Source: Opitutaceae bacterium
GTDB taxonomy: Bacteria; Verrucomicrobiota; Verrucomicrobiia; Opitutales; Opitutaceae
Direction of reading: 5' to 3'
DNA: 13,841 nt
NCBI GenBank assembly: GCA_031254955.1
Contig: JAIRTK010000205.1
Span: 1-13,841 of the forward strand
Shown piece after piece: positions 7,203 through 13,810 of the stretch. The position numbers were made by a program, and so were the translations under genes. Positions within the stretch are counted from its first letter, which is position 1; every line of letters starts with the position of its first letter. The notes beneath the pieces are model-generated. The model was not told where the DNA came from. It ran no database searches and worked only from the letters and a program-made list of their open reading frames with translations.

Positions 7203-7232
7203 ATCATGCCAGAGACGGGGCGGCGTTGTCTT
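7203..7232 (-). promoter_or_regulatory. Predicted promoter of the autotransporter gene
   Basis: On the minus strand a -35-like AAGACA (7227-7232) is followed by 18 bp and a -10-like CATGAT (7203-7208). The expected transcript start is near 7196, giving a leader of about 35 nt. The -35 is poor against TTGACA, as expected for an activator-dependent promoter. The placement is supported by matching arrangements upstream of the sulfatase and GH2 genes. Confidence 0.55.
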
Positions 7233-7267
7233 TATTGAAAAAAGCAATAAAATTTTCTTTTTGGCCA
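7228..7267 (-). promoter_or_regulatory. Shared 40-bp operator, copy 1 (autotransporter)
   Basis: In the direction of the autotransporter gene this copy begins TGGCCAAAA and ends AATAAAGAC, 66 bp before the ATG. It has the same length as the other two copies. Twenty-seven of 40 positions are identical in all three, including both ends (TGGCCAAAA and TAAAGAC). This is the most diverged copy: the TTACC half-site seen in the others (plus-strand reading) is TTATT here. Binding by the adjacent XylR/AraC-type regulator is inferred. Confidence 0.75.
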
Positions 7268-7318
7268 AATGAATCAGGTGAGGGACAACCGGGAATGCGG
7301 GACGGGGGCTTTGATTTT

Positions 7319-8743
7319 TCAGCGTGGCGCGGCGGAGGCGCGCGCCCCCGCCGCCGGACGGACCCGGTCGCGCTCGACCCGTCCCGCCCATTCGGACAGG
7401 CTGCCGTTCATAAGGGCGACCCGGTCCGGGTTTCGGGTCGCCAGATCATTTTGCTCCCCCGGATCGTCGCGGAGATTGAACAGCATGGGCGGCTGCGTGG
7501 ACTCCGCCGTGATCGTCCTGGACGTGACGAACGGGCGGACCAGTTTCCAGTCGCCGTCAAGCATCGCGGCGTTGTGGGTGTAAAGCGGCAGGCCGCGGTT
7601 CCACTGCCAGAAGAGCATCCGCTCCGGGGGCCTTCGCGCATGGCAAAGCGCGTCGAGCAGGTTGATGCCGTCAAGGTCAAGCGCGCCGGGCAGTGTGATT
7701 TCACAGGCGGCGGCCAGCGTCGGCAGCAAATCAACGAAATGGATGAGGGTGTTGTCGCGCCCCGGTGTCAGGCGTCCCGGCCAGCGAATCATGAGCGGCA
7801 CATGGATGCCGCCGTCATAGACAGTGTATTTGGTGCCGCGAAACTGCGCATTGAAGCGTTTGCCGGTGTAGAGGTCCGGCCCGTTGTCGCTGGCAAAGAC
7901 AACGATCGTGTTGCCGGCCAGCCCCAGGGCGTCCAGCTCCCCCAGCAGGCGCCCAATGCCATGATCCATCACCTCAACCATGGCGTAAATGGTGGCGGTG
8001 TCGTTGTCGAAGCCCTTGTCCTTATAAGACTGAATCAGTTTTTCCGGAGCGTTAAGCGGACGATGGGGAGCATTATATGCCAGGTGCAGAAAAAACGGAC
8101 GGTCCCGGTGGCGGCGGACAAAGTCAACGGCCAGCTCGGTGAGATGATCCGTCATGTAGCGATCCTTGAAGGCGCGCTCCTCCCCCTGTATTTCAAGCGC
8201 GTAGTCGTAATAGCTCTTCAATTTCCCAAAAAGATCCTCGGTGAAGCCGGAGAACTCCCGGAATCCACGGCGCAACGGATGGCAGGCCGGTCCGTCGCCG
8301 CAATGCCATTTGCCAATCAAGCCGGTTGCATAACCAGTGGCCGCGAAGAGGTCCGCAATGGTGGTCTCGTCGGGATGGAGCCGGGTGCGTCCGGTGTTTT
8401 TGTTCAGCGCGGTCACACCGGTGCGATGAGGATACCGTCCGGTGAGCATGGCCGCCCGGGCCGGGGCGCACACAGGGGCGGCCGAGTATCCGCGATTGAA
8501 AAACATGCTTTGCAGGGCCAGCTGATCGAGACTCGGGGTGCGAGTCAGCCCGCCATTGACACAGGCGAGGTCGCCGTAGGCCATGTCATCGGCGAGGATC
8601 AGCAACACATTGGTTTTGGCGGGCGATGGCGGGGTTGCCTCCGATGCGCCTCCCGCCACAGGCAGGGATGAGGCCAGAACCGAGGATGTCATCAGGGCAA
8701 CGGTCGCGGAGGGGAGGAGGGCGGAGGGGACGATTGTCTTCAT
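7319..8743 (-). CDS. Secreted S1-family sulfatase (arylsulfatase type)
   Basis: Predicted formylglycine-dependent sulfatase of 474 residues that hydrolyses sulfate esters, probably on a glycan outside the cytoplasm. Residues 1 to about 24 form a signal peptide (MKTIVPSALL start, cleavage near VLA). The catalytic signature is CAPARAAMLTGR, with Cys92 as the formylglycine precursor and Arg96. Likely metal ligands are Asp52-Asp53 in LADDMAYGD and Asp286-Asn287 in SDNGPD. Other family-typical residues are Lys145 and His147 (GKWH), His227 (NAPHRP) and Lys305. The C-terminal subdomain contains DGDWKLV and LFNLRDDPGEQNDLA, typical of the fold. In-frame ATGs further upstream at 8872 and 8809 lie in the operator flank and in the predicted -10 box, so 8743 is preferred. 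No Shine-Dalgarno is visible. It needs a sulfatase-maturing enzyme, not encoded here. The substrate cannot be read from sequence; the neighbouring GH2 suggests a sulfated galactoside-type glycan. Confidence 0.93.
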   Translation of the reverse strand: MKTIVPSALLPSATVALMTSSVLASSLPVAGGASEATPPSPAKTNVLLILADDMAYGDLACVNGGLTRTPSLDQLALQSMFFNRGYSAAPVCAPARAAMLTGRYPHRTGVTALNKNTGRTRLHPDETTIADLFAATGYATGLIGKWHCGDGPACHPLRRGFREFSGFTEDLFGKLKSYYDYALEIQGEERAFKDRYMTDHLTELAVDFVRRHRDRPFFLHLAYNAPHRPLNAPEKLIQSYKDKGFDNDTATIYAMVEVMDHGIGRLLGELDALGLAGNTIVVFASDNGPDLYTGKRFNAQFRGTKYTVYDGGIHVPLMIRWPGRLTPGRDNTLIHFVDLLPTLAAACEITLPGALDLDGINLLDALCHARRPPERMLFWQWNRGLPLYTHNAAMLDGDWKLVRPFVTSRTITAESTQPPMLFNLRDDPGEQNDLATRNPDRVALMNGSLSEWAGRVERDRVRPAAGARASAAPR

Positions 8744-8804
8744 GGGCACATGCCGGGGCGGATGAGGTGGTTTGCGGGGATGGGACGCCGGGAATATCCT
8801 GACG

Positions 8805-8833
8805 ACCATACCGGAAGCCGGCGGAAACGTCTT
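8805..8833 (-). promoter_or_regulatory. Predicted promoter of the sulfatase gene
   Basis: Minus-strand -35-like AAGACG (8828-8833), a 17-bp spacer, then -10-like TATGGT (8805-8810). The expected start is near 8798, giving a leader of about 55 nt. The promoter lies wholly in the 147-bp gap between regulator and sulfatase, so the sulfatase need not depend on readthrough from the regulator. Confidence 0.6.
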
Positions 8834-8868
8834 TACCGAAAACGGCAATAATTTTATCGTTTTGGCCA
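8829..8868 (-). promoter_or_regulatory. Shared 40-bp operator, copy 2 (sulfatase)
   Basis: In the sulfatase direction it begins TGGCCAAAACG and ends GGTAAAGAC, 85 bp before the ATG. Read on the plus strand it holds the perfect inverted word CCGAAAACGG and the near-palindrome CAATAATTTTATCG. Identity with copy 3 continues beyond the 40 bp on the promoter side (GTTTC follows in both). It starts 22 bp from the 3' end of the regulator gene. Confidence 0.8.
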
Positions 8869-8890
8869 GCACCCCGCGCGCCGCATCCCG

Positions 8891-10084
8891 TCACTCGTGC
8901 CGGAACAGGGCGCGGTATTCGCCCGGCGTCTGGCCGGTGGTCTGGCGGAAAAGCACGTTCAGGCGCGGCGAACTCGGGAAATCGCAGGCCTCGGCAATCG
9001 CGGTCAGCTTCATGTCCGTGGTTCGCAAAAAATACTGCGCGCGCGCGATGCGCACGCGCTGGATTTCGCTGAGGATCGGGCGTCCGAGCGCCTGCCTGAA
9101 GCGCACTTTCAGGCCGCTGCGCGAAATGCCCGACGCGCGCACCACGTCCTCCACGTAAACGTTCTCCGAGGCGTGCTCGCGGATGAACGCCACCGCGCGC
9201 GCCACCGCCTCGTCCTCGACAAACAGCACGTCCGTCGAGCGGCGCGCGGACACCGCCGTCACCGGCAGATGCAGCTCGCCCGGCGTGCGGCGCGCGGACG
9301 CCGCCGGCTTCCGCCCGCCCATCAACTTGTGCAACAGCGCCGCCGCCTCGAAGCCGATCTGGCGCGCGGGCAGCTTCACGCTCGAAAGCGGCACGTTTTC
9401 AAAATCCACCCAAAATTCATCGTCGCCCGCGCCGATGATCGCGATGTCCTCCGGCACAGTGCGCCCGATCTCCTGGGCGGCGCGGATGAGGTGCAGGGCA
9501 AACGGGTCGAGCACGCCGAAAATCCCGAGCCGGCGGGGCAGTTTCCCCAGCCAGGCGCGCATGCGCGCGATGAGCGGCGCGCCTTCCTCGGACAGGAGGG
9601 CCGGGCCTTCGCCCACGACGCACTTCGCCCACGGCATCCGCCCGTGCAGCGTGTGGCGGAAGCCCTTGATGCGCTCCTGCGAGAAACGCGCGTTGCGCTG
9701 CCCCCAGCACGCGAAGGCCGTGCAGCCGCAGGCGAGCAGGTGCTCCGCCGCCAGCCGCCCCACCGCCTCGTCGTCCTGCGTGACCAGCGGCAGCCGCGTG
9801 GACGGCATGACGTTGGAGATGTTGACGCACGGCACGGGCAGCCGGAGCAGCTTTCGCTCGGCCGCCTTTTCGCGCACCAGCACGATCATGCCGTCGATGT
9901 GCTGCTCGCGCACCATGTCCGCAAGCTCCGCGCCGCGCTTGAGCGGGCTGTTGCTGAGCTTGATGCGCCCCGTGGTGAACGCGTAATGCCGCGCGCCGAG
10001 GATGATGTTGCGCGAATACTCCCAGCCGGTTTCGAGGTTGAGCAGGTGCATGTGGAACGACCGCCGGGGCGCCTTGTTTTTCAT
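8891..10084 (-). CDS. XylR-type transcriptional regulator (LacI-like sensor, AraC HTH)
   Basis: Cytoplasmic one-component regulator of 397 residues, close in size to E. coli XylR (392). Residues 12 to about 270 resemble the LacI/GalR periplasmic-binding-like sensor, without an N-terminal LacI HTH. The usual opening is seen as LLNLETGWEYSRN; also seen are VTQDDEAVGRLAAEHLL (101-117), the ERIKGFR segment (137-143), and GAGDDEF followed by PLSSV (232-236). Residues about 300-397 are an AraC-type double helix-turn-helix, with a first HTH around VEDVVRASGISRS and a second from LTAIAEACDFPSS to GQTPGEYR. It should bind a sugar and switch catabolic genes. The ATG at 10084 is preferred because it directly abuts the conserved operator and leaves a normal short N-terminus; an in-frame ATG at 10180 would place coding sequence across that operator. 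It sits divergently from GH2 and upstream of the sulfatase. The ligand is unknown. Confidence 0.92.
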   Translation of the reverse strand: MKNKAPRRSFHMHLLNLETGWEYSRNIILGARHYAFTTGRIKLSNSPLKRGAELADMVREQHIDGMIVLVREKAAERKLLRLPVPCVNISNVMPSTRLPLVTQDDEAVGRLAAEHLLACGCTAFACWGQRNARFSQERIKGFRHTLHGRMPWAKCVVGEGPALLSEEGAPLIARMRAWLGKLPRRLGIFGVLDPFALHLIRAAQEIGRTVPEDIAIIGAGDDEFWVDFENVPLSSVKLPARQIGFEAAALLHKLMGGRKPAASARRTPGELHLPVTAVSARRSTDVLFVEDEAVARAVAFIREHASENVYVEDVVRASGISRSGLKVRFRQALGRPILSEIQRVRIARAQYFLRTTDMKLTAIAEACDFPSSPRLNVLFRQTTGQTPGEYRALFRHE

Positions 10085-10123
10085 GGCCAAAACAATAATA
10101 TAATTACCTTTTATGGTAAAGAC
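10084..10123 (+). promoter_or_regulatory. Shared 40-bp operator, copy 3 (GH2 and regulator, divergent)
   Basis: In the GH2 direction it begins TGGCCAAAACA and ends GGTAAAGAC, the same orientation relative to GH2 as the other copies have to their genes. On the opposite strand its last base is the A of the regulator's ATG (TTTTGGCC then ATG). Read on the minus strand it holds a perfect inverted repeat TTACC-6 bp-GGTAA. Its position allows activation of GH2 and feedback control of the regulator from one site. Binding itself is inferred. Confidence 0.8.
10092..10120 (-). promoter_or_regulatory. Possible promoter of the regulator gene inside operator copy 3
   Basis: Minus-strand TTTACC (10115-10120) and TATTGT (10092-10097) are separated by 17 bp. 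A start about 7 bp on would fall at or next to the ATG, so the transcript would be leaderless or nearly so, and bound operator would occlude this promoter. A/T-rich DNA here makes chance matches likely. Confidence 0.35.
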
Positions 10124-10147
10124 GTTTCGCGCCGGGGTCTTTATAAT
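10119..10147 (+). promoter_or_regulatory. Predicted promoter of the GH2 gene
   Basis: -35-like AAGACG (10119-10124), a 17-bp spacer, and a consensus -10 TATAAT (10142-10147). The expected start is near 10154. This excludes the in-frame ATGs at 10113 and 10146 as translation starts, since they lie in the operator and in the -10 box. The leader to the GH2 ATG is about 225-250 nt, much longer than the leaders of the other two target genes. Confidence 0.7.
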
Positions 10148-10400
10148 GCCGCCGAATTTCCATCCAAGGGCACAATTCAAAGCGAGGACACGTCACCCTC
10201 CTTCTTCTTCCCTCTTTCCTCTTTCCTCGTTATCTTTCCTCTTTCTCCTCCGGACGGTGCCGGTGGCGGGAGAAAGAGGAAAGAAGAAAGAGGGCGGCTG
10301 TGTGTCCTCACTTTGGGGCGCGCCCTCCATCCGCCCCGCGGGTGAAGATGACTTTACAAGCGATTCAACCGACTTTCCCATGCCGTCGAATTTTCCATCC
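10146..10400. repeat. Near-direct repeat flanking the GH2 leader
   Basis: The 20-bp word at 10146-10165 (ATGCCGCCG then AATTTCCATCC) recurs at 10380-10400 as ATGCCGTCG then AATTTTCCATCC, with one substitution and one extra T. The copies bracket a 214-bp segment that contains the hairpin element. The first copy overlaps the -10 box; the second supplies an in-frame ATG at the GH2 start. Confidence 0.65.
10178..10315. repeat. Large imperfect inverted repeat in the GH2 leader
   Basis: Outer arms CAAAGCGAGGACAC (10178-10191) and GTGTCCTCACTTTG (10302-10315) pair at 13 of 14 positions. Inner arms 10233-10248 and 10269-10284 pair at all 16 positions. Between them the left arm is a C/T tract with repeated CTTTCCTC and the right arm a G/A tract; the left arm is about 20 bases longer. 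The composition and terminal symmetry recall a MITE-like insertion, but no target duplication directly flanks it. Confidence 0.7.
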
Positions 10401-10406
10401 GCCCCC

Positions 10407-13124
10407 ATGAGCCAGACTCCGTCTCCCGCGAGCGCCGCGCCCGGCCTGCCGCGCCACATTAAAAAATCCACGGCGCTCCTCTGCCTGCTGTCCGCGCCCG
10501 CGCTGGGCGCGGCGACGGACGCCGCCCCGGCGGTTTCGGACGCCGGTGACATCCGGCCCGCGCGCGAGCGCATCGCGTTCAACGACGGCTGGCTTTTCCA
10601 GCGGGGCGACCCCGCGCACATCGGCGGCGCGCTGGACTACGAGCGCGTGCGTGACTGGGTGCTGCCGACCGGCGACCACCTGCTGGCCGTCGCGCCGCGC
10701 CGCGTCCCCGCGGAGGCGCCGACGCCCGACACCCATCATGCGAACGGCACCACCTGGGCGCAGCCGGACTTCGACGATTCGGGCTGGCGCGCGCTGGACC
10801 TGCCGCACGACTGGGGCGTGGAGGGGGATTTTCAGCAAGACCTGCCCGGCGAGACCGGCAAGCTCCCGTGGTTCGGCGTCGCGTGGTATCGCAAGCACTT
10901 CGACTCGCCCGCCGGCGACGCCGGGCGCCGCGTCCAACTCGATATCGACGGGGCGATGTCCAACGCCCTCGTCTGGCTCAACGGCAGGCTCATCGGCGGC
11001 TGGCCCTATGGCTACACCTCGTGGCGCGTCGATCTCACGCCGCACCTGCGGCCCGGCGCGAGAAACACCCTCGCCATCCGCCTCGACAACGCCCGCGAAT
11101 CCTCGCGCTGGTATCCCGGCGGCGGGCTTTACCGCAACGTCTGGCTGGTGAAAACCCATCCCGTGCACGTCGCGCACTGGGGCGTGTTTGTCACCACGCC
11201 GTCCGTCACGCGCGAGAAAGCCACCGTCGATGTCGCCGTCACGCTGGACAACACGACCGCCACGGGCGCGAACGTCGAGCTGGCCCTGCGCGTCTTCGCC
11301 GCTGACGCGCAAGGCCGGCCCGCCGGCCCGCCCGTGGCGATCGGCAAACCCGCACGGGTAAAAGTGGACGCCGCGCGCCAGGCGAACTACTCGCACACCG
11401 TCACCCTCGCCGCCCCGCGCCTCTGGAGCCTCGACGCGCGCCACCGCTATGTCGCCGAGACGCTGGTCAGCGCGGGCGGCGCGCCCGTCGATCGCGTGGC
11501 GACGCCGTTCGGTATCCGCAAAACAGATACGACGGCGGACCGCGGGTTTTTGTTGAACGGCGAACGCGTGCCCCTTCGCGGCGTGTGCCTGCACCATGAC
11601 CTCGGCGCGCTCGGCGCGGCGCTCCATCTCCGCGCGATGGAACGCCAGCTCGAAATCCTGCGCGAGCTGGGTTGCAACGCCATCCGCACCAGCCACAACC
11701 CGCCCGCGCCCGAGCTGCTCGAACTCTGCGACCGCATGGGCTTCCTCGTCATGGACGAGGCGTTCGACTGCTGGGCGATGGGCAAGAAACGCGACGACTA
11801 CAGCCGCTTTTTCGCCGACTGGCACGAGAAGGACCTGCGCGCCCTCGTCCGCCGCGACCGCAACCACCCCAGCATCATCCAGTGGAGCATCGGCAACGAA
11901 ATCCGCGAGCAAGGACGCTCCGACGGCTGGAAACTCGCCGCCCGCCTCGCCGCCATCGTGCGCGAAGAGGACCGCACCCGCCCCATCGCCTGCGGCTTCA
12001 ACGGCGTGCGCGCCGGCTACAGCGGATTCCACGCCGTGGTGGACATCGTCGGCTACAACTACAAACCGCACGAATACGCGCGCTTCCGCGCCGCGCACCC
12101 GCACATCCCGCTGCTCGGCGCCGAGACGGCCTCGACCCTCAGCTCGCGCGGCGAGTATTTTTTCCCGGTCAGCGAAAACAAAAACGACGGACGCGCCGAC
12201 AACCAAGTCAGTTCCTACGACCTTTACGCCCCCCGATGGGCGACGACGCCCGACGACGAATGGCGCGCCCAGGATGAAAACCCCGCCGTGCTCGGCGAGT
12301 TCGTCTGGACGGGCTTCGACTACCTCGGCGAACCCACCCCCTACAACGACGACGCCACCAATCTCCTGAACTTTTCCGACCCCGCCGGACGCGCCCGCGC
12401 CGAAAAGGAACTGGCCGCGCTCGGGCGCATCCGCACGCCCGCGCGCAGCTCCTATTTCGGCATCGTCGATCTCGCCGGGTTTCCCAAAGACCGCTTCTAT
12501 CTCTACCAAGCGCGATGGCGCCCCGACCTGCCGATGGCGCACATCCTGCCGCATTGGAACTGGCCCGAACGCCTCGGCGAAATCACCCCCGTGCACGTTT
12601 ACACCAACGCCGACGAAGCCGAACTCTTTCTCAACGGAAAATCCCTCGGACGCAAAAAACGCGCCCCGCTCGAATACCGCTTCCGCTGGGACGATGTCAC
12701 CTACGAACCCGGCGAGTTGAAAGTCGTCACATGGAAAAACGGAAATCCGAAACCCTGGGCCGAAGCCGTCACGCGCACCGCCGGCCCCGCCGCGAAACTC
12801 GCGCTCGCCGCCGACCGCGCGCGCCTCCGCGCCGACGGGCGGGACCTCGCCTTCGTGACCGTGACCGTCGCCGACGCCGAAGGCCGTCCTGTCCCGCGCA
12901 GCAAAAACGCCCTCCGCTTCCGCGTGACCGGCCCCGCCGAAATCGCCGCCACCGACAACGGCGACGCGACCGACCACACCTCCTTCCAATCCCCCGCCCG
13001 CCGCGCCTACAACGCCCTCGCCCTCGTCATCCTCCGCACCCGGCCCGGCGAGAAAGGCGAAATCGCCCTTCACGCCGAAAGCGAAGGCTTGGCTCCCGCG
13101 CAAATCAAGGTGCAAAGCGAATAA
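10407..13124 (+). CDS. Secreted glycoside hydrolase family 2 enzyme (beta-galactosidase-like)
   Basis: A 905-residue GH2 enzyme from this start, predicted to release terminal beta-linked sugars by a retaining mechanism. A signal peptide with KKSTALLCLLSAPALGA (ends near residue 35) implies export. An N-terminal jelly-roll sugar-binding domain follows at about 54-250 (FNDGWLF, DLPHDWGVEGDF, GGLYRNVWL), then an Ig-like domain to about 375. A TIM barrel covers about 375-690, with SHNPP, the acid/base Glu498 in IGNEIREQG and the probable nucleophile Glu573 in LLGAETAST. Their spacing (75) matches LacZ-type enzymes (76). VWTGFDYLGEPTPY lies near 633. A DUF4982-like module (VYTNADEAELFLNGKSLG) is near 727-780 and a C-terminal Ig-like or Big domain ends the protein. 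ATG 10380 is an alternative start; it lies in a duplicated copy of the promoter-proximal sequence, so 10407 is slightly preferred. No Shine-Dalgarno is visible. Specificity (galactosidase, glucuronidase or other) is not settled. Confidence 0.92.
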   Translation: MSQTPSPASAAPGLPRHIKKSTALLCLLSAPALGAATDAAPAVSDAGDIRPARERIAFNDGWLFQRGDPAHIGGALDYERVRDWVLPTGDHLLAVAPRRVPAEAPTPDTHHANGTTWAQPDFDDSGWRALDLPHDWGVEGDFQQDLPGETGKLPWFGVAWYRKHFDSPAGDAGRRVQLDIDGAMSNALVWLNGRLIGGWPYGYTSWRVDLTPHLRPGARNTLAIRLDNARESSRWYPGGGLYRNVWLVKTHPVHVAHWGVFVTTPSVTREKATVDVAVTLDNTTATGANVELALRVFAADAQGRPAGPPVAIGKPARVKVDAARQANYSHTVTLAAPRLWSLDARHRYVAETLVSAGGAPVDRVATPFGIRKTDTTADRGFLLNGERVPLRGVCLHHDLGALGAALHLRAMERQLEILRELGCNAIRTSHNPPAPELLELCDRMGFLVMDEAFDCWAMGKKRDDYSRFFADWHEKDLRALVRRDRNHPSIIQWSIGNEIREQGRSDGWKLAARLAAIVREEDRTRPIACGFNGVRAGYSGFHAVVDIVGYNYKPHEYARFRAAHPHIPLLGAETASTLSSRGEYFFPVSENKNDGRADNQVSSYDLYAPRWATTPDDEWRAQDENPAVLGEFVWTGFDYLGEPTPYNDDATNLLNFSDPAGRARAEKELAALGRIRTPARSSYFGIVDLAGFPKDRFYLYQARWRPDLPMAHILPHWNWPERLGEITPVHVYTNADEAELFLNGKSLGRKKRAPLEYRFRWDDVTYEPGELKVVTWKNGNPKPWAEAVTRTAGPAAKLALAADRARLRADGRDLAFVTVTVADAEGRPVPRSKNALRFRVTGPAEIAATDNGDATDHTSFQSPARRAYNALALVILRTRPGEKGEIALHAESEGLAPAQIKVQSE

Positions 13125-13584: not shown

Positions 13585-13810
13585 GCGCGCTGGCGCAAGG
13601 AGGGGCGGCGTCCCGCCGCCCGACGCGGGCAAAGCCCGCGCCCGTTTCGCAGGGATGCGGACGGATGCACACGGGTTTTCGGATTGCCTGCCGGCGGATG
13701 GACGAGGTGAGTGAGCGAGCGGACGGACGGGCGAGGTGAGCGAGCGGACGGGCGAGGCGCGTTGCGCCTCGTCGGGCGGCGGGACGCCGCCCCTCCTTGC
13801 GCCAGCGCGC
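13585..13810. repeat. Long inverted repeat with perfect 41-bp arms
   Basis: Arms 13585-13625 and 13770-13810 are perfect inverted copies (41 of 41), rich in G and C, beginning GCGCGCTGGCGCAAGG. The 144-bp interior holds two small hairpins close to the arms, GCGGGC-AAA-GCCCGC (13625-13639) and GAGGCGC-GTT-GCGCCTC (13755-13771, overlapping the right arm), plus the tandem motif below. Perfect arms imply recent origin or gene conversion. No transposase is present, so a non-autonomous element or an intergenic repeat is the best description. Confidence 0.8.
13701..13757. repeat. Short tandem motif inside the 41-bp inverted repeat
   Basis: GTGAGCGAGCGGACGG occurs at 13711-13726 and 13736-13751, a period of 25 bp, with flanking GCGAGG words before and after. 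Part of a G-rich, purine-rich strand. No function can be assigned. Confidence 0.6.

Follow-up and report, generated by a model that had tools for sequence, protein, structure and literature searches.

A conserved promoter element in an Opitutaceae gene cluster, probably the operator of a XylR-type regulator joined to a -35 box

We analysed a stretch of 13,841 nucleotides from an Opitutaceae bacterium (contig JAIRTK010000205.1 of assembly GCA_031254955.1; hereafter the window), in which genes for an autotransporter-like protein, a sulfatase and a XylR-type regulator lie on the reverse strand and a glycoside hydrolase family 2 (GH2) gene lies on the forward strand (Table 1). Three copies of one element precede the autotransporter, sulfatase and GH2/regulator genes, and the original prediction, which described them as a 40-base-pair (bp) operator, was accurate in its account of the sequence: the copies lie at exactly 7228-7267 (-), 8829-8868 (-) and 10084-10123 (+), each is 40 bp long and ungapped, 27 of the 40 columns are identical across all three, both ends are invariant among the window copies (TGGCCAAAA and, on the promoter-proximal side, TAAAGAC), and every copy faces its named target gene. 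From comparison with related regulators we propose, with a probability of roughly three in four, that the element would be a 35-bp operator of the XylR-type regulator fused to a -35 box, with a -10 box beginning 18 bp past column 40, and that it would serve both target activation and autoregulation.

The pattern had been claimed to lie beyond chance, and searches of the window's own genome (G000; assembly 3.58 Mb, 69% complete) bore this out. With at most three mismatches at the 27 fixed positions, we recovered only the three window copies in G000, one copy in G001 and two in G002, two genomes of the same genus that are 72% and 96% complete, and none with backwards controls; further copies could be missing from G000 and G001, since both are incomplete. 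The exact pattern TGGCCAAAA-N20..28-TAAAGAC matched three times in G000, every time within the window, and its backwards form did not match there. Across 57 genomes including G000, this pattern gave 8 matches against 6 for the backwards control (one of the latter in G002), with five of the 8 in this gene cluster (three in G000, two in G002) and three elsewhere. Three of the 8, the exact-pattern matches L004, L006 and L007, were taken as chance, their length and inner sequence not fitting. When the phylum was scanned with a degenerate pattern, 387 genomes yielded five places in four genomes against three backwards, a result that says little about spread because the window's own three copies escaped it; no such regulator was present in the surroundings of the degenerate-scan places L015-L017. 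The three-copy pattern is not due to chance.

The element recurred at related regulators. One copy in G002 lies between the GH2 gene and the regulator and another before an autotransporter-like gene; G001 has a single copy before the regulator, with the contig ending 26 bp beyond. The same place is occupied at regulators 62-64% identical in Spartobacteria LR76, another Verrucomicrobia metagenome-assembled genome (MAG) and a Didemnitutus MAG. Our surveys, both including G000, covered 250 genomes of the family, 23 of which had the regulator at E <= 1e-80 (the best seven or fewer candidates per genome scored), and 188 genomes of the class, four of which had it at E <= 1e-60 (the best ten or fewer scored). 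Sites upstream of 32 regulators (L051 excluded) were taken as the best place of a seven-site matrix, and L012 and L013 added two to give 34 loci; L073, the fourth regulator of genome G007, was added later than the 32. Against 3078 control windows, a matrix from the three window copies alone, which the original prediction had proposed to run on relatives, exceeded the 99th percentile at 24 and the maximum at 19 of 31 other regulators, two of which (L025 and L026) are same-genus copies. Base composition flatters this contrast, since most control windows are coding and have a lower AT content than promoters. None of ten distant paralogues from G000, G001 and G002 (ten of 17 further regulator-like matches) passed the 99th control percentile.

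Two genomes carry several such regulators. In G007, four paralogues (L070-L073) each have a different variant of the element at their start, one of them (L046/L072) weak, and these four form a natural set for specificity tests. In G494, two paralogues in one cluster have an operator variant each (L075 9527-9566 and 18146-18185), and each variant faces a DHDPS-family gene.

Downstream of the element, a [TC]AnnnT hexamer begins exactly 18 bp past column 40 in 25 of 39 sites, with at most three sites at any other offset from 6 to 39. Columns 36-41 read nnGACn, at a 17-bp spacer from this -10 hexamer, with G at column 38 in 32, A at column 39 in 22 and C at column 40 in 28 of the 39 sites; T is missing from column 36 throughout, so that none of the sites shows the TT of TTGACA. 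Three sites that were found without use of the -10 hexamer (L073 and L009b and L076b, the second sites of L009 and L076) all have it at 18 bp. Columns 36-41 are best read as a putative -35 box lacking its TT, which would mean that the promoter-proximal end is not all operator. A -10 box inside the element, at columns 16-21, was dropped as a candidate because the hexamer 18 bp past the element is the conserved one.

The regulator joins an N-terminal periplasmic-binding-protein-like domain (PF13377, residues 113-271, E = 1.3e-23) to a C-terminal AraC-type double helix-turn-helix (HTH; PF12833, residues 316-392, E = 6.7e-16). Its closest solved structure is E. coli XylR (4fe4 and 4fe7, E = 7e-38 and 8e-38), with a match over residues 55-392 that takes in both domains; the paper on this structure is reportedly that of Ni et al. 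from 2013. Neighbouring genes suggest sugars other than D-xylose as the effector. Window copy 3 abuts the regulator gene so closely that its column 1 pairs with the A of the regulator ATG on the opposite strand, and in 31 of the 34 loci the distance between operator edge and an in-frame ATG of the regulator is from -1 to +16 bp, the exceptions being L045, L049 and L050. Some regulator frames open further upstream, so that starts inside or beyond the operator are possible at some loci. If the ATG is right, the gene is almost leaderless and any nearby promoter must sit inside the operator.

Variation in the regulator was accompanied by variation in the site. Where residue 373 of the regulator is proline (the P of PRL in the recognition helix of HTH2), column 34 is T in 10 of 11 cases; where it is Q or H, in 0 of 23. 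This match amounts to essentially one evolutionary switch on the tree and is therefore weak as independent evidence. The proline group forms one well-supported clade, in which L046 is the exception in its site.

Over 36 sites, the strongest symmetry was an inverted repeat (dyad) about column 18, with a mean of 8.64 of 14 complementary pairs against 3.72 (standard deviation 0.70) expected from column permutation; 0 of 2000 permutations reached this value, and 0 of 200 did so when the best of all centres tried was allowed, figures that, like the other symmetry counts below, are inflated by related sites. A first scan of 28 sites had favoured the same inverted repeat. The dyad is complete in L023, where all 14 pairs match, and strong, with 12 of 14 pairs, in L052, L038 and L048; its pairing within individual sites was reached in 2 of 2000 shuffles, or in 33 of 2000 with 18 representatives. 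Among direct repeats, offset 21 (z 2.06) was outscored in the 28-site scan by offsets 27 and 30 (z 2.95 and 2.55), which have no reading beyond A-rich runs and the likeness of GGCCAAAAC and GGTAAAGAC. The side clade of L045, L049 and L050 has a different inverted repeat, of the TGGCGAAAACGC...GCGTTTTCGCC type in L045.

Besides the mostly coding control windows and the single switch in the recognition helix, several observations weigh against reading the element as a conserved inverted-repeat operator with a fixed promoter. In the window's own clade the dyad is weak, with a mean of 6.9 of 14 pairs over 12 sites compared with 9.5 in the other 24, and window copies 1-3 have 7, 9 and 7 of the 14 pairs. 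A free search for the best dyad close to the regulator start returned the same register in 7 of 11 loci, and failed to do so in L021, L022, L043 and L046. Seven of the 31 regulators (L046, L030, L023, L037, L039, L041 and L050) fell below the 99th control percentile with the three-copy matrix, and their sites are merely the best-scoring places of the wider matrix, some near or below zero (L023 0.7, L050 -5.4). Finally, 14 of 39 sites lack the [TC]AnnnT hexamer at 18 bp, including the autotransporter site, where the distance is 19 bp, and L045, L049 and L050. Assignment of the element to the embedded XylR-type regulator, as originally predicted, is nonetheless favoured by its presence at related regulator starts, by the ten distant paralogues that lack it, by the promoter geometry and by the clade-wise match between helix and site, and it fails for the promoter-proximal end. 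Judged from these comparisons, the element is real, conserved and composite, and most likely bound by the neighbouring regulator.

How the regulator would bind admits a second answer, namely two tandem half-sites in direct repeat 21 bp apart, with the inverted repeat as a by-product of similar boxes. This was our first reading; it was demoted after the scans favoured the inverted repeat, and we now consider it unlikely. A study of the E. coli xylE promoter describes, in its accessible part, two XylR sites that adjoin each other and differ in preference, the right-hand one next to the RNA polymerase site (PMC6375646), an arrangement that speaks for tandem binding. The direct repeat at offset 21 also exceeds chance (5.81 of 14 versus 3.65, with 7 of 2000 permutations as high), and in the window's clade the dyad leads it by little (6.9 versus 5.1 of 14). 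Over all 36 sites, however, the dyad is much stronger, with no permutation in 2000 reaching it and complete pairing in L023, and site-by-site matching also favours it, since 67 of 2000 shuffles equalled the direct repeat.

A regulator that represses at these sites and is released by its ligand would suit the LacI/GalR-type ligand-binding half, a class with many repressors, but seems rather improbable given the position of the operator, which precedes the -35 box as activator sites tend to do, and given that the TT of TTGACA is missing from all 39 sites. The sign reported for E. coli, where XylR appears to act as an activator at xylE according to the same partly accessible source (PMC6375646), points the same way. 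Conservation of the -35 and -10 parts is what would be expected if a different regulator bound the element, or if it were a conserved core promoter only, but either case is very unlikely: the element tracks this regulator clade, is absent at ten other XylR-type regulators of the same genomes, and in its local form (at most three mismatches) occurs only in the regulator's cluster in G000, G002 and G007. Dispersed repeats are common in this genome, an example being the stretch at 10160-10372 in the GH2 leader with 74 matches including itself, so that copies of a small mobile or repetitive element, or an RNA hairpin, also had to be considered. With three genomic copies only, each at a promoter, with the same position in distant relatives, with the element preceding the start proposed for the outward transcript, and with no Rfam match in the window at gathering scores, this origin is scarcely credible.

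Returning to the regulator as activator, we infer protein binding, a dimer, activation over repression, autorepression and a sugar effector. A regulator dimer, probably sugar-bound, would sit at about -70 to -36 and touch RNA polymerase, thereby activating the GH2, sulfatase and autotransporter genes. Autoregulation would come from the copy at the start codon of the regulator; it would probably take the form of repression by occlusion, since a promoter close to the regulator gene could only be located within the operator. More tentatively, a wider scheme is quite conceivable in which a whole verrucomicrobial subfamily of LacI/AraC hybrids uses an inverted-repeat operator of 35 bp, its four boxes sharing one face, in place of the tandem sites that AraC proteins typically use. 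This operator would be fused to the -35 box of the outward promoter and end at the regulator start, activating the target and shutting off a nearly leaderless regulator, and its specificity would have changed jointly with that of the recognition helix, from clade to clade and among paralogues of the same genome.

Parts of this layout resemble known systems. AraC binds araI1-I2, a direct repeat. Like that site, the present element occupies about 40 bp on the upstream side of the -35 box, touches this box and has its own boxes about one helical turn apart; it differs in that the inverted repeat is the stronger symmetry over all sites. LacI/GalR-family operators are palindromic, offering a two-fold symmetric site to a symmetric dimer, and this likeness holds here, but the element is longer (35 bp), lies upstream of the -35 box and would be bound by an AraC-type rather than a LacI-type DNA-binding domain. 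The regulator shares with E. coli XylR the combination of LacI/GalR-type ligand domain and AraC-type DNA-binding domain, and differs in that its site lies at its own start codon. Searches of the open-licence literature on XylR/AraC-type and Verrucomicrobia/Opitutaceae regulators found no operator of this form, in agreement with the original prediction, and we judged the element to be an undescribed operator variant of a known regulator type. Compared with xylE, as far as the accessible part of that source goes, the location directly beside the RNA polymerase site is alike, and position and sign fit; two adjacent sites there contrast with one 35-bp inverted repeat in many relatives here, a comparison of layouts, not of sequences (PMC6375646).

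Among 20 outward genes scanned with Pfam, nine encode GH2 enzymes, three GH130 enzymes, three DHDPS-family aldolases, two PATR proteins, one a sodium:solute symporter and one a TonB plug, and one has no Pfam match. The 20 do not include L020 (the window) and L025 (G002), both with GH2, and L013, L035, L041, L042, L043 and L050 were left out; the outward gene of L026 is cut by the contig end, and a script found no convincing outward reading frame at L023, L029, L030, L037 and L044. In G007, the operator faces a PATR protein gene, followed by a DHDPS gene and a symporter gene. In G207, a second operator (L076 3210-3249, about 5 kb from the site at the regulator, with TAGGCT at 18 bp) precedes a BNR-repeat gene, and a sulfatase is part of the same cluster. 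A regulon around the regulator had been predicted, and the sites do lie by the regulator or in its cluster; with the local form present three times in G000, twice in G002 and once in G007, it looks small and local, not genome-wide.

The sulfatase appears to be a variable member. In G002, the operator that precedes the autotransporter-like gene agrees with the sulfatase operator of the window at 39 of 40 positions. Its upstream flank matches the flank of the sulfatase copy, while its -10 region resembles that of the autotransporter. The sulfatase itself is absent in G002 from the place between regulator and autotransporter; its best matches in G001 and G002 are 35-39% identical, and it has no match in G007 at E <= 1e-40. 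A sulfatase with an extra operator would thus have been either gained in G000 or lost in G002 between the regulator and the autotransporter.

Table 1. Genes, operator copies and putative promoter boxes of the window.
Feature	Position	Strand	Basis
Autotransporter-like protein with PATR repeats, 2217 amino acids	508..7161	-	Pfam PF12951, NCBIfam TIGR02601
Putative -10 box CATGAT, autotransporter promoter, 19 bp (not 18) past column 40	7203..7208	-	
Putative -35 box, autotransporter promoter	7227..7232	-	
Operator copy 1, columns 1-35, autotransporter promoter	7233..7267	-	
Sulfatase	7319..8743	-	Pfam PF00884, 4.3e-61
Putative -10 box TATGGT, sulfatase promoter, 18 bp past column 40	8805..8810	-	
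Putative -35 box, sulfatase promoter	8828..8833	-	
Operator copy 2, columns 1-35, sulfatase promoter	8834..8868	-	
Regulator, XylR-type, 397 amino acids	8891..10084	-	Pfam; E. coli XylR structures 4fe4/4fe7
Operator copy 3, columns 1-35, common to GH2 promoter and regulator start	10084..10118	+	
Putative -35 box, GH2 promoter, columns 36-41	10119..10124	+	Column counts over 39 sites
Putative -10 box TATAAT, GH2 promoter, 18 bp past column 40	10142..10147	+	
GH2 beta-galactosidase, GalB type	10407..13124	+	NCBIfam NF041463, 1180.9 bits (cut-off 900)

Other repeats were present in the window. The 10160-10372 stretch has long inverted arms, its genome matches share a core at about query positions 38-134, and imperfect 21-bp copies flank it at 10139-10159 and 10373-10393; the corresponding leader in G002 is much shorter, and the stretch looks like a dispersed hairpin repeat inserted between promoter and GH2 gene. 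Positions 4-320, in the spacer past the 3' end of the autotransporter gene, hold nested direct repeats, such as 110-154/220-264 (91%) and 149-190/260-301 (95%), together with long inverted repeats (116-155/168-207 and 20-49/73-102). A 44-bp inverted repeat, 98% complementary, at 13585-13628 and 13767-13810 lies near the contig end and is possibly the reason the contig ends there.

The element offers a defined operator whose promoter layout can serve as a scan pattern, and it allows a test of whether AraC-type DNA-binding domains, once attached to a LacI-type dimer, can function as a pair with two-fold symmetry. Verrucomicrobiota are degraders of complex and sulfated sugars, and the window suggests a way in which a sulfatase gene came to belong to a regulon: it sits between regulator and autotransporter and has an operator copy of its own. 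Because regulator and site adjoin and paralogues within one genome vary, the targets and specificity of many XylR-type regulators of this phylum may be readable from sequence.

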